A stretch of 64,000 nucleotides of DNA. Origin: Micromonospora kangleipakensis. Lineage in GTDB: Bacteria; Actinomycetota; Actinomycetes; Mycobacteriales; Micromonosporaceae. Under the pieces are notes generated by a model. It searched no databases. It saw nothing but the letters and a program-made list of their open reading frames with translations, and had not been told where the DNA came from. A program made the position numbers and the translations under genes. Positions 56,843 through 60,188 of this stretch are shown here, piece after piece. The DNA is taken from contig NZ_SHLD01000001.1 of assembly GCF_004217615.1 (NCBI RefSeq), positions 682,001 through 746,000 on the forward strand, read 5' to 3'. The stretch's first letter is position 1. Every line of letters starts with the position of its first letter.

Positions 56843-56882
56843 CGCGCCCGCGCCGCGCAGTCCAGCACCGCATTGCTCAGGT

Positions 56883-56896
56883 CACGCGTACGCGTG
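56883..56896. promoter_or_regulatory. Perfect 14-bp palindrome before the nuclease-helicase gene
   Basis: CACGCGTACGCGTG, 30 bases upstream of the -10-like CAGGAT at 56926-56931, which is 5 bases before GTG 56937. Could be an operator for the helicase gene; no SOS-type (GAAC-N4-GTTC) box is present. Confidence 0.4.
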
Positions 56897-56936
56897 GCGG
56901 CGGGCGGGCGGTGCGCCGGCCGTGACAGGATGCGGC

Positions 56937-59900
56937 GTGCCTCCGTTCAGCGCCGCACCCCCCGGTGGCCTCCCGCCATTCGTCGCGGATCTGCACATCC
57001 ACTCGAAGTACTCGCGGGCGTGCAGCCGTGACCTGACCCTGCCGAACCTCGGCTGGTGGGCCCGGCGCAAGGGCATCGGCGTACTCGGCACCGGCGACTT
57101 CACCCACCCCGCCTGGTACGACCACCTGCGCGAGACCCTGCATCCGGCCGAGCCGGGCCTGTACCGGCTGAGCCCGGAGGCGGAGCGGGACATCGCCCGC
57201 CGGCTGCCGCCCCGGCTGGCCAGCACGGCGGAGGCGGACCCGGTCCGGTTCATGCTCAGCGTGGAGATCTCCACGATCTACAAGCGGGACGACCGGACCC
57301 GCAAGGTGCACCACCTGATCTACCTGCCCGACCTGGACGCGGTGGCCCGGTTCAACGCCGCGCTGGGGCGGATCGGCAACCTGGGCTCGGACGGCCGGCC
57401 GATCCTCGGCCTGGACTCCCGGGACGTGCTGGAGATCACCCTGGCGGCCAGCCCGGACGGCTACCTGGTCCCCGCGCACATCTGGACGCCGTGGTTCTCC
57501 GCGCTCGGCTCGAAGTCCGGCTTCGACGCGATCGCCGACTGCTACGCGGACCTGGCCGAGCACATCTTCGCGGTGGAGACCGGCCTCTCCTCCGATCCGG
57601 AGATGAACTGGCGGGTCGGCAGCCTCGACCGCTACCAGCTCGTCTCGAACTCCGACGCGCACTCGCCGCCGGCGCTGGCCCGGGAGGCCACGGTCCTGAG
57701 CTCGGCCCGGGACTACTTCGCCATCCGGGAGGCGCTGCGGACCGGCGACGGGCTGGCCGGGACGATCGAGTTCTTCCCGGAAGAGGGGAAGTACCACGCG
57801 GACGGCCACCGGCTCTGCGGCGTGAACTGGTCGCCGGAGCGGACCCGGGAGGCGGGCGGGCGCTGCCCGGAGTGCGGCAAGCCGTTGACGGTGGGCGTCC
57901 TGAGCCGGGTCGAGGAGCTGGCCGACCGGCCGGCGGGGCACCGGCCCGCGCACGCCCGCCCGGTCACCCACCTGGTGCCGCTGGCCGAGATCCTCGGCGA
58001 GATCAACAAGGTGGGGGCCCGCGCCAAGAAGGTCGAGGGGAAGCTCAACGAGCTGGTCGCCGCGCTCGGCCCGGAGCTGGAGATCCTCACCGCCACCCCG
58101 CTGGACGAGGTGGGCCGGGTCGGCGGCGAGCTGCTCGCCGAGGGGATCGGCCGGCTGCGCCGCGGCGACGTGCGCCGGGTGCCGGGTTACGACGGCGAGT
58201 ACGGCGTGATCACCCTCTTCGACCCGGCCGAGCTGGGCGGAGCCTCGACGGGGACGCAGGCGGAGACGCTCTTCGACGTACCCGTGCCGGCGCAGCGACG
58301 GCCCGCGGAGCCGGCGCCGAAGCCGAAGGCCCGGCGCCCGGCGGCGAAGGCCGAGCCGAAGCGGAAGGCCGCACCGCCACCGCCGCCGCCGATCGCGCCG
58401 GCGCCCTCCCCGCACGAGCCGTTCGAGCCGATGCTCGCCGGCATGGAGGAGGTCGGCACCGGCCTGCTGGACCGGCTGGACGCGATGCAGCGGGTGGCCG
58501 CCTCCGCGCCGGGCGGTCCGCTGCTGATCGTGGCCGGCCCGGGCACCGGCAAGACCCGGACGCTGACCCACCGGATCGCCTACCTCTGCGCGGAGCTGAA
58601 CGTCTTCCCCGAGCAGTGCCTGGCGATCACCTTCACCCGGCGGGCCGCCGAGGAGCTGCGGCACCGGCTGGACGGCCTGCTCGGCCCGGTGGCCGAGGAC
58701 GTCACCGTCGGCACCTTCCACTCCCTCGGGCTGGCCATCCTGCGGGAGAACGCCGAGGCGGCCGGCCTGCCGAAGGACTTCCGGATCGCCGACGACGCGG
58801 AACGCTCCGCGGCCCGCGCGGAGGCCGGCGACGACACGGCCCGCTACACCGCGCTGCTGCGCAAGCAGGACCTGGTGGACCTGGACGAGCTGCTCACCCT
58901 GCCGGTCGCGCTGCTGAAGGCCGACCGGAAGCTGGTCCGCGAGTACCGCGACCGCTGGCGCTGGATCTTCGTCGACGAGTACCAGGACGTCGACGCCGTC
59001 CAGTACGAGCTGCTGCGGCTGCTCAGCCCCGCCGACGGCAACCTCTGCGCGATCGGCGACCCGGACCAGGCGATCTACTCGTTCCGCGGCGCGGACGTCG
59101 GCTACTTCCTGCGCTTCTCGCAGGACTTCACCGACGCCCGGCTGGTCCGGCTGAACCGCAACTACCGCTCGTCGGCGCCGATCCTGGCCGCCGCCGTGCA
59201 GGCCATCGCGCCGTCGTCGCTGGTCCGCGGCCGCCGGCTGGACCCGGCCCGGCTCGACCCGGAGGCCCCGCTGGTCGGTCGCTACCCCGCGGCCTCCGTC
59301 TCCGACGAGGCCGATTTCGTGGTACGCACCGTCGACGAGCTGGTGGGCGGCCTCTCCCACCGGTCGCTGGACTCGGGCCGGATCGACGGGCGGTCGACCA
59401 CGCTCTCGTTCTCCGACATCGCGGTGCTCTACCGCACGGACCAGCAGGCCGCGCCGATCGTGGACGCGCTGGCCCGGGCGAACATCCCGGTGCAGAAGCG
59501 CTCGCACGACCGGCTGCGGGACCGCCCCGGCGTGCTGGCGATCGCCCGGGAGCTGCGGCACGCCGACGGCCTCGACGGCTCGTTGCCCGCCCGGGTCCGG
59601 CTGGCCGGGCAGGTCCTCGCCGAGCGCTTCGCCATCCCCACCCTGGACGGCGCCGGCGCGGTACGCCCCGAGGACGTCCGGACGGCGGTCGACCTGCTCA
59701 CTCCGCTGGCCCGTCGCTGCGGCGACGACCTGGAGCTGTTCCTCGCCCAGCTCGCCACCGGCGCGGAGGTGGACGCCCTCGACCCGCGCGCCGAGGCGGT
59801 CACCCTGCTCACCCTGCACGCGGCGAAGGGCCTGGAGTTCCCGGTGGTCTTCCTGGTCGGCGCCGAGGACGGGCTGCTGCCGCTGCGCTGGCCCGGCGCG

Positions 59901-60128
59901 GAGCCGGACGACGACGCGGTGGCCGAGGAGCGCCGGCTCTTCTTCGTCGGCCTGACCCGCGCCCAGGACCGGCTGTACGTCAGCCACGCCGCCCGCCGGG
60001 CCCGGCACGGCGCGGAACGCGAGTGCCGGCCGTCGCCGTTCCTCGACGTGATCGACCCGGGCCTGTTCGAACGCTTCGGCGACGCCGAGCCCCGCCGCCC
60101 GAGGGACCGCCAGCTCCGCCTGATCTGA
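56937..60128 (+). CDS. EndoQ-like PHP nuclease fused to UvrD-type helicase
   Basis: 1063 residues. Residues 16-400 are a PHP-fold nuclease of the TIGR00375/Endonuclease Q type: HIH at 20-22, D54 and H57 in GTGDFTHP, E110, H181 in PAHIWTPWF, D240/H242 in SNSDAHSPP, and a Cys cluster (C294, C310, C313 in CPECGK) that binds zinc in EndoQ. A Pro/Lys/Ala linker follows (about 450-490). Residues about 505-1060 form a SF1A UvrD/PcrA helicase: Walker A GPGTGKT near 534, DEYQDVD near 680, NRNYRSS near 740, LHAAKGLEF near 958. EndoQ nicks 5' of uracil, hypoxanthine and AP sites. GTG 56937 is chosen; GTG 56922 is possible. Confidence 0.88.
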   Translation: MPPFSAAPPGGLPPFVADLHIHSKYSRACSRDLTLPNLGWWARRKGIGVLGTGDFTHPAWYDHLRETLHPAEPGLYRLSPEAERDIARRLPPRLASTAEADPVRFMLSVEISTIYKRDDRTRKVHHLIYLPDLDAVARFNAALGRIGNLGSDGRPILGLDSRDVLEITLAASPDGYLVPAHIWTPWFSALGSKSGFDAIADCYADLAEHIFAVETGLSSDPEMNWRVGSLDRYQLVSNSDAHSPPALAREATVLSSARDYFAIREALRTGDGLAGTIEFFPEEGKYHADGHRLCGVNWSPERTREAGGRCPECGKPLTVGVLSRVEELADRPAGHRPAHARPVTHLVPLAEILGEINKVGARAKKVEGKLNELVAALGPELEILTATPLDEVGRVGGELLAEGIGRLRRGDVRRVPGYDGEYGVITLFDPAELGGASTGTQAETLFDVPVPAQRRPAEPAPKPKARRPAAKAEPKRKAAPPPPPPIAPAPSPHEPFEPMLAGMEEVGTGLLDRLDAMQRVAASAPGGPLLIVAGPGTGKTRTLTHRIAYLCAELNVFPEQCLAITFTRRAAEELRHRLDGLLGPVAEDVTVGTFHSLGLAILRENAEAAGLPKDFRIADDAERSAARAEAGDDTARYTALLRKQDLVDLDELLTLPVALLKADRKLVREYRDRWRWIFVDEYQDVDAVQYELLRLLSPADGNLCAIGDPDQAIYSFRGADVGYFLRFSQDFTDARLVRLNRNYRSSAPILAAAVQAIAPSSLVRGRRLDPARLDPEAPLVGRYPAASVSDEADFVVRTVDELVGGLSHRSLDSGRIDGRSTTLSFSDIAVLYRTDQQAAPIVDALARANIPVQKRSHDRLRDRPGVLAIARELRHADGLDGSLPARVRLAGQVLAERFAIPTLDGAGAVRPEDVRTAVDLLTPLARRCGDDLELFLAQLATGAEVDALDPRAEAVTLLTLHAAKGLEFPVVFLVGAEDGLLPLRWPGAEPDDDAVAEERRLFFVGLTRAQDRLYVSHAARRARHGAERECRPSPFLDVIDPGLFERFGDAEPRRPRDRQLRLI

Positions 60129-60188
60129 GGCGGGTGGCGGTCGCCGGTACGCGTCGACCATCGTGGCCGCGCCGACCCCCGACGGGAA

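Follow-up and report, generated by a model that had tools for sequence, protein, structure and literature searches.

What does a bacterium do with an enzyme in which a nuclease of the endonuclease Q (EndoQ) type and a helicase of the UvrD type are joined in one polypeptide? The question is raised by a gene of Micromonospora kangleipakensis, whose genome is a single contig of 7,267,142 bases; the stretch analysed here, called the window below, comprises the 64,000 nucleotides at positions 682001-746000 of that contig. The parts of the EndoQ literature cited here treat EndoQ mainly as an archaeal enzyme with homologues in some bacteria, and the steps that follow its nick are proposed there, not shown. 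The fusion gene occupies positions 56937..60128 of the window (forward strand, as do all features given below) and encodes 1063 amino acids, from a GTG start to a TGA stop, which is included in the coordinates. An AGGA sequence that may act as a ribosome-binding site lies six bases 5' of this GTG (56927..56930), and a second in-frame GTG is located upstream of the assigned start, at 56922. With a GC3 of 0.97 this frame carries a strong coding signal, and the reverse-strand frame at 56877-60161 was rejected as a gene, being the shadow of a high-GC coding frame. A preliminary description of this locus had read a single 1063-residue frame that combines an EndoQ-type PHP nuclease with an SF1A helicase, and the frame itself, the profile matches and the structure matches all confirm it. 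In both a protein search and a species-genome scan, the nearest relatives of the protein belong to Micromonospora.

The N-terminal half (56979..58244, residues 15-436) is an EndoQ-like PHP nuclease together with the Zn-binding and C-terminal parts. In a PDB search with residues 1-435 (threshold E 0.001), the Pyrococcus furiosus (Pfu) EndoQ entries were the sole matches, with a best E of 3e-44, and the EndoQ fold is matched over its full length, in the PHP, Zn-binding and C-terminal parts. The structural match to the P. furiosus enzyme, on which the preliminary description had let its assignment depend, was therefore found, at about 30% identity. The P. furiosus and T. kodakarensis enzymes (PDB 5zb8, 7k30-7k33) have no helicase, whereas the window protein is a fusion. 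The EndoQ-type profile TIGR00375, a hypothetical equivalog, is matched with an E of 7e-45 and 153.9 bits, which is under its curated cut-off of 326.6. Stand-alone bacterial EndoQs, such as those of B. subtilis and B. pumilus (TIGR00375), share the EndoQ domain with the window protein but have no helicase, and their format of about 400 residues is not that of the 1063-residue fusion. It should be mentioned that PF27218 appears in precomputed protein-database listings and is absent from a Pfam scan of the window protein.

Alignment places the catalytic ligands E110, H125, and H181 at 57264..57479; they correspond to E76, H84, and H139 of Pfu EndoQ, in which the substitutions E76A, H84A, and H139A are reported to abolish cutting (PMC8307549). 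A second stretch, at 57582..57668, contains G216 and S218 of the selectivity pocket (Pfu G169 and S171) and the sequence SNSDAHSP with D240 (Pfu D193) and H242. According to the same report, Pfu H139, G169, and S171 exclude T and A from the pocket (PMC8307549), and their counterparts H181, G216, and S218 are all present here. In an alignment of 49 fusions, E110, H125, H181, D240, G216, and S218 are each invariant (49/49), in agreement with the earlier claim that all the expected EndoQ metal ligands are in place; D240 is the counterpart of the essential Pfu Asp. H20 and H126 are each retained in 47 of the 49, the former being replaced by Gln in L055 and L060 and the latter by Asn in L087 and L088. 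The claim of a zinc Cys cluster held for C294, C310, and C313, which are invariant, and did not hold for the first position, at which the Pfu Cys is His291 in the window protein (GHRLC...CPEC, 57807..57875, from the alignment); this position is His in 48 of the 49 fusions and Cys in L084. The archaeal enzymes named above have a four-Cys zinc cluster and a PIP box, whereas the window protein has one His and three Cys, along with a bacterial clamp-type motif that is described below. Such a Cys3His site could bind zinc. EndoQ enzymes nick DNA 5' of uracil, hypoxanthine, xanthine, and AP sites, a specificity that the window protein may share.

The two halves are connected by a predicted disordered linker rich in Pro, Ala, and Lys (58248..58457, residues 438-507, pLDDT < 50), which carries an LFD motif at residues 445-447. 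The SF1A helicase of the UvrD/PcrA type follows at 58458..60086 (residues 508-1050), passing both PF00580 (218.5, gathering cut-off 23) and PF13361 (108.8, cut-off 25.6). It has the same fold and motifs as UvrD, PcrA, and Rep, to which the window protein adds the N-terminal nuclease. The Walker A motif AGPGTGKT is located at 58533..58556, with K539 and T540 invariant in 49/49 fusions, and the Walker B motif (motif II, DEYQD) at 58974..58988; the tabulated helicase motif residues are invariant in all 49 fusions. Nevertheless, the NCBIfam equivalog cut-offs are missed for PcrA (370.4 of 911.2 bits), UvrD (296.7 of 1144.45), and Rep (290.7 of 951.45). Between anchors read off the PcrA alignment, the 1B subdomain (58791..58886) has 31 residues versus 76 in PcrA, and the 2B subdomain (59487..59774) has 95 versus 168, so that both are about half the size of those in UvrD, PcrA, and Rep. 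The same lengths range from 10 to 77 (1B) and from 70 to 128 (2B) among the 49 fusions; the reduction is usual, not uniform, and a few fusions have a full-size 1B. The PcrA match stops at its residue 649 of 724, and the C-terminal part of PcrA is hence absent from the alignment. E. coli Rep, a UvrD-type helicase, is active with its 2B removed, so that a reduced 2B need not conflict with helicase activity in the window protein. The structure prediction for the whole protein has a pTM of 0.54, which suggests that the EndoQ and helicase halves have no fixed mutual arrangement.

The protein ends in a tail (residues 1051-1060 are disordered in the predicted structure) that is followed directly by the stop codon, and its last five residues, QLRLI (60111..60125), resemble a sliding-clamp-binding motif. 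The preliminary description overlooked this putative motif, which shifts the most likely place of action of the enzyme. In 43 of the 49 fusions the terminal 20 residues contain the pattern Q[LM]x[LM][FLI], which in 41 of them lies no more than two residues from the end, whereas 0.2 of 49 would be expected by chance (shuffled last 60 residues); elsewhere in these 49 proteins it is found once in the remaining 49,754 residues. The other six have the near forms QQRLF, QPRLL, QLRLV, QDSLF, QMSFDF, and QFSLF, and over the whole set Q1059 never varies, while 48/49 have Leu at position four of the motif. The strict form QL[SDE]LF is present in 18 of the 49, the window protein not among them, since its tail ends in Ile and is further from the consensus than the QLSLF and QLDLF of other phyla. 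Among the best 120 of at least 7,997 proteins found with the EndoQ half (near-copies, the window's included), 112 end in QLRLI and eight in QLRLM. No such motif was found in the last 80 residues of three other UvrD-type helicases of the same genome.

Archaeal EndoQ is reported to bind PCNA via a C-terminal PIP box, and clamp-binding consensus sequences at the C-termini of bacterial EndoQs were noted by the same authors (PMC4858679). A parallel is EndoMS/NucS, a repair endonuclease common to archaea and actinomycetes, for which an archaeal PIP box and a bacterial five-residue C-terminal clamp motif are described, the actinobacterial motif being given as [E/K][L/Y][T/R]LF (PMC8228993); the NucS of the genome studied here ends in ELTLF. 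However, EndoMS/NucS has an unrelated nuclease fold, makes double-strand cuts at mismatches and contains no helicase. The stand-alone Streptomyces EndoQ P0170 ends in QPRLF, and the stand-alone P0171, P0183, and P0229 have no terminal Gln-motif (P0229 ends in PTLF). As we read these endings, the clamp motif tends to keep its C-terminal place with or without an added helicase, and in the fusion protein this end tag probably provides a tie to the replication clamp.

As its distribution shows, the fusion is not a peculiarity of one actinomycete. With the EndoQ half as query, a protein search gave at least 7,997 candidates, all with an E of 0.001 or better, and the best 120 of them all carry UvrD domains. 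A species-genome scan was seeded with the window protein and its best 80 loci were kept (further matches exist), so that close and fused relatives are over-represented and the result is no census; both halves lie in one frame at 76 of these 80 loci, a count that includes some loci cut by contig ends, as well as L063 and L023, in which the frame is interrupted within the helicase. Of the other four, L062 and L072 have EndoQ alone (L072 was counted as stand-alone for its closed 438-aa EndoQ frame, with no helicase match in its contig), and in L082 and L085 the frame is interrupted where the two halves join. The same fusion was indeed met beyond the window, with 43 of the 76 fused loci in Actinomycetota; the rest belong to Pseudomonadota (8), Melainabacteria (6), Planctomycetota (4), Elusimicrobiota (3), Myxococcota (3), Binatota (2), Chloroflexota (2), and Verrucomicrobiota (1), with four loci without phylum. 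The fusion is therefore present in nine phylum-level groups among these loci, where single placements may be wrong as many non-actinomycete records are metagenome bins. A rationale offered earlier, that high-GC genomes have many C residues to deaminate, is weak and was rejected as a general rule, because 13 of the 76 fused loci have a GC content below 45%. Within the order, 75 of 298 genomes match, 48 of them in the window's genus (48/49), and the gene is patchy outside it. An open frame of at least 934 aa, by which these matches were judged, exists in 72 of the 75; of the three shortest frames, G487 and G514 encode EndoQ alone, and in G519 the EndoQ has diverged and a helicase is missing. When the phylum was searched with TIGR00375, which is less sensitive as a query, 9/396 matched.

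In a quick tree of EndoQ domains (L105 and L106 were not included), the stand-alone actinomycete EndoQs, namely four P proteins and L104, are nested among fused actinomycete sequences, which suggests that their helicase was lost later. One of the four P rows, P0229, is from Streptosporangium, though tagged 'Streptomyces' in the tree. With L072 left out of the count, the fused/stand-alone label requires four changes on this tree, two of which are forced by well-supported branches. The helicase halves, with L082 and L085 included despite their broken frames, group together (support 76) apart from four other helicases, a thin outgroup sample taken from this genome in which one member (L098) is a partial frame. 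A single old fusion is the simplest reading of these trees, not a proved one. Because stand-alone EndoQs without a helicase sit in the actinomycete clade, the helicase is dispensable to some hosts.

It is in this light that one should weigh the view that the halves are joined for co-expression only, the UvrD half having a general role, such as fork- or transcription-linked unwinding, unrelated to the lesion. The existence of stand-alone EndoQ, for example in Streptomyces and in G487, would fit such a role, as would the flexible linker and a predicted structure suggesting no fixed arrangement of the halves (pTM 0.54). On the contrary, one frame has been maintained across nine phylum-level groups, both catalytic centres are invariant in 49/49 fusions, and the helicase halves make up a lineage of their own, separate from the four sampled helicases (with a support of 76 only); we consider joining for co-expression only to be quite unlikely.

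Could the gene instead serve in defence, degrading incoming phage or mobile-element DNA that contains uracil or modified bases, with the helicase adding processivity? The helicase half resembles Gabija GajB models (PADLOC), and like GajB it is a UvrD-type helicase that works with a nuclease. GajA, the nuclease partner of GajB, is a separate ATPase/TOPRIM protein, and Gabija is defined by a GajA-type nuclease beside the helicase. Here, the nuclease is of the PHP/EndoQ kind, and none of ten nearby frames has a GajA-type Pfam match. An antiviral role of bacterial EndoQ has been suggested (PMC8307549). Nevertheless, the PADLOC matches reflect generic UvrD similarity, and the four neighbouring proteins tested gave none at all. 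By Pfam, the nearby frames encode FdhD, DUF4192, a fructosamine kinase, an EamA transporter, and an AAA protein, with a metallophosphoesterase just upstream; these are ordinary metabolic or transport genes, and a defence island was rejected. Furthermore, the gene is near-universal in the genus (48/49) and syntenic in the Micromonosporaceae: among the 80 loci, a metallophosphoesterase homologue is found in the flanks of 27/27 Micromonosporaceae loci and 0/53 others, and fructosamine kinase (25), DUF4192 (22), AAA (19), and EamA (14) occur only in that family; no homologue of five window neighbours was found outside it among the flanks of the 80 loci. The EndoQ half has no match in 72,556 plasmid records or in 50,697 phage records, and a phage- or plasmid-borne gene was rejected on this ground. 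With the whole protein, 63 phage records match, none over 80% of its length, and the 15 listed of these 63 match the helicase half. A defence role is thus highly improbable.

The best reading of the window protein is that of a nick-then-unwind enzyme, and it builds on two folds with intact active sites, a conserved architecture, and a terminal motif that is itself conserved. The EndoQ half would flip out a uracil, a hypoxanthine, or an AP site and cut the phosphodiester bond 5' of the lesion, leaving a 3'-OH and a 5'-phosphate, the latter on the damaged end; these nick products are reported for EndoQ (PMC4357722). The flexibly tethered UvrD half would load at the nick and move 3'-5' on the undamaged strand, peeling off the damage-bearing 5' end as a flap; a DNA polymerase on the clamp would then extend the freed 3'-OH, and a flap nuclease would remove the lesion. 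Just as PCNA holds archaeal EndoQ and the beta clamp holds actinobacterial NucS, the QLxL[F/L/I] tag may keep the window protein on the beta sliding clamp, either at the fork or where DNA has just been synthesised. The lesion specificity, the order of the steps, the direction of unwinding at the nick, and the clamp binding are what we infer. That the protein is in this sense a clamp-held, glycosylase-independent housekeeping excision enzyme for deaminated and abasic sites, judged from sequence and models, is to our mind an even call. Some observations weigh against it: four UDG-superfamily genes and EndoV exist beside the fusion gene, stand-alone EndoQs of the actinomycete clade do without a helicase, the tail ends in Ile, the strict motif is limited to 18/49 fusions, TIGR00375 stays under its cut-off, one zinc ligand is unlike that of Pfu, and the gene is patchy outside the genus. 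Since the genome encodes four UDG-superfamily proteins, one EndoV gene, and several UvrD-type helicases, the fusion would add a route to others that exist. (For other helicases of this genome, the designations UvrD1-like and UvrD2-like are a guess from size.)

Two other orders of events deserve attention. UvrD removes the excised piece in nucleotide excision repair, and a comparable dual incision can be imagined, in which the EndoQ half cuts 5' and EndoV 3' of the lesion before the UvrD half removes the short piece. Of the two models that the discoverers of archaeal EndoQ proposed, the first relies on strand displacement by a polymerase with Fen1 and the second on EndoQ acting with EndoV, helicase activity accounting for the removal (PMC4357722); dual incision matches the second model, which names a helicase step (PMC4357722, PMC7343888), and the genome has its one EndoV gene. 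Later work suggested different pathways for EndoV and EndoQ, and the review concerned says that they seem to act apart and calls the pathway after the nick open (PMC7343888). Moreover, EndoV cuts two bonds 3' of the lesion, which would leave a piece too short to require a helicase, and dual incision is accordingly very doubtful. In a different review, repair of the EndoQ nick is assigned to a DNA helicase, FEN1, a polymerase, and a ligase (PMC8438529). The other order is that of a translocating surveillance nuclease, in which the helicase acts first, opening DNA or moving along it, and feeds strands to the EndoQ pocket, a nick ending the action; motor and cutter would be coupled as in helicase-nuclease machines like AdnAB or RecBCD. 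UvrD-type motors drive AddAB, AdnAB, and RecBCD, which are also among the structural matches here, the long linker predicted to be disordered would permit such feeding, and activity of archaeal EndoQ has been reported on single-stranded as well as duplex DNA (PMC8307549). But EndoQ makes one lesion-specific nick and not processive cuts, its cutting of AP sites in single-stranded DNA is reported as weak (PMC6202378), and the clamp-like tail points to recruitment to duplex DNA; we hold surveillance of this kind to be unlikely.

The fusion is real, intact, and widespread, and as far as was searched it is undescribed: no description was found in the open-licence literature, in which PHP domain, UvrD, and 'fused' are mentioned together only in unrelated places. 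While each catalytic domain is of a known kind, the novelty lies in their joined, clamp-tagged architecture and in how widely it occurs. To our knowledge, the fusion is the first genetic link of EndoQ to a particular helicase family. Its occurrence in nine groups points to a UvrD-type helicase as the partner of EndoQ and to the sliding clamp as its likely workplace; a single purified protein would suffice to test the two. That it represents a widespread, undescribed repair pathway, in which a clamp-tethered single polypeptide locates deaminated or abasic sites with no glycosylase, nicks next to them and unwinds the damaged strand, has in our estimate somewhat less than an even chance. If this is true, the protein would correspond, in a single polypeptide, to the nick-plus-UvrD step in mismatch repair, and many phyla would have kept it since an old fusion; the helicase that published EndoQ models invoke unnamed would thereby be supplied, and the reading would predict that archaeal EndoQ partners a separate helicase on PCNA.

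The suspicion that a helicase label hides the nuclease in routine annotation proved correct, as most of the full-length proteins named by NCBI are called 'UvrD-helicase domain-containing protein', a label that conceals the nuclease domain. Many N-terminal fragments carry the NCBI name 'endonuclease Q family protein', and the helicase name has even passed to the stand-alone EndoQs P0171 and P0187, which have no helicase.

Directly C-terminal of the EndoQ domain, the fusion carries an LFD motif (window positions 58269-58277, residues 445-447), and LFD or LFE is found at the same place, immediately past this domain, in many other actinomycete fusions. The stand-alone EndoQs of two genomes of the same order that have EndoQ without the helicase (G487 and G514) have an LFD/LFE motif as their very C-terminus. 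The motif in the fusions is perhaps a remnant of an older clamp tail. Two further EndoQ-only proteins, the 433-aa P0171 of Streptomyces poonensis and the 454-aa P0187, appear in one source under the name "DNA helicase UvrD", yet the domain listings of both contain no helicase domain.

In several Gastranaerophilales-type fusions, the junction between nuclease and helicase coincides exactly with a run of A residues, roughly 1233 bases into the reading frame. The run is nine long in loci L059, L063, L079, L081, L089, and L082, and ten long in L085. In L082 and L085, the reading frame is interrupted at this run; the break may be an assembly error, or it may reflect slippage that yields free EndoQ.

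A comparison of the fusion sequences showed that the first PHP histidine is replaced by glutamine in two alphaproteobacterial fusions (L055 and L060), which have VQIHS in place of LHIHS, and that the position of H126 is occupied by asparagine in one myxococcal and one chloroflexal fusion (L087 and L088). A diverged EndoQ-like protein without a helicase (L106; G519:C3:127500-133500) has SSSDAHGP in place of SNSDAHSP, and its zinc cluster, reading GHREHG, is short of one cysteine. Its specificity is perhaps altered.

In the Micromonospora kangleipakensis genome, the EndoQ fusion co-exists with four genes of the UDG superfamily and a single gene for EndoV (positions 2590810, 1744802, 5972146, 7201890, and 1853701 of the contig that holds the window), and it is possible that uracil and hypoxanthine are repaired there by several routes.
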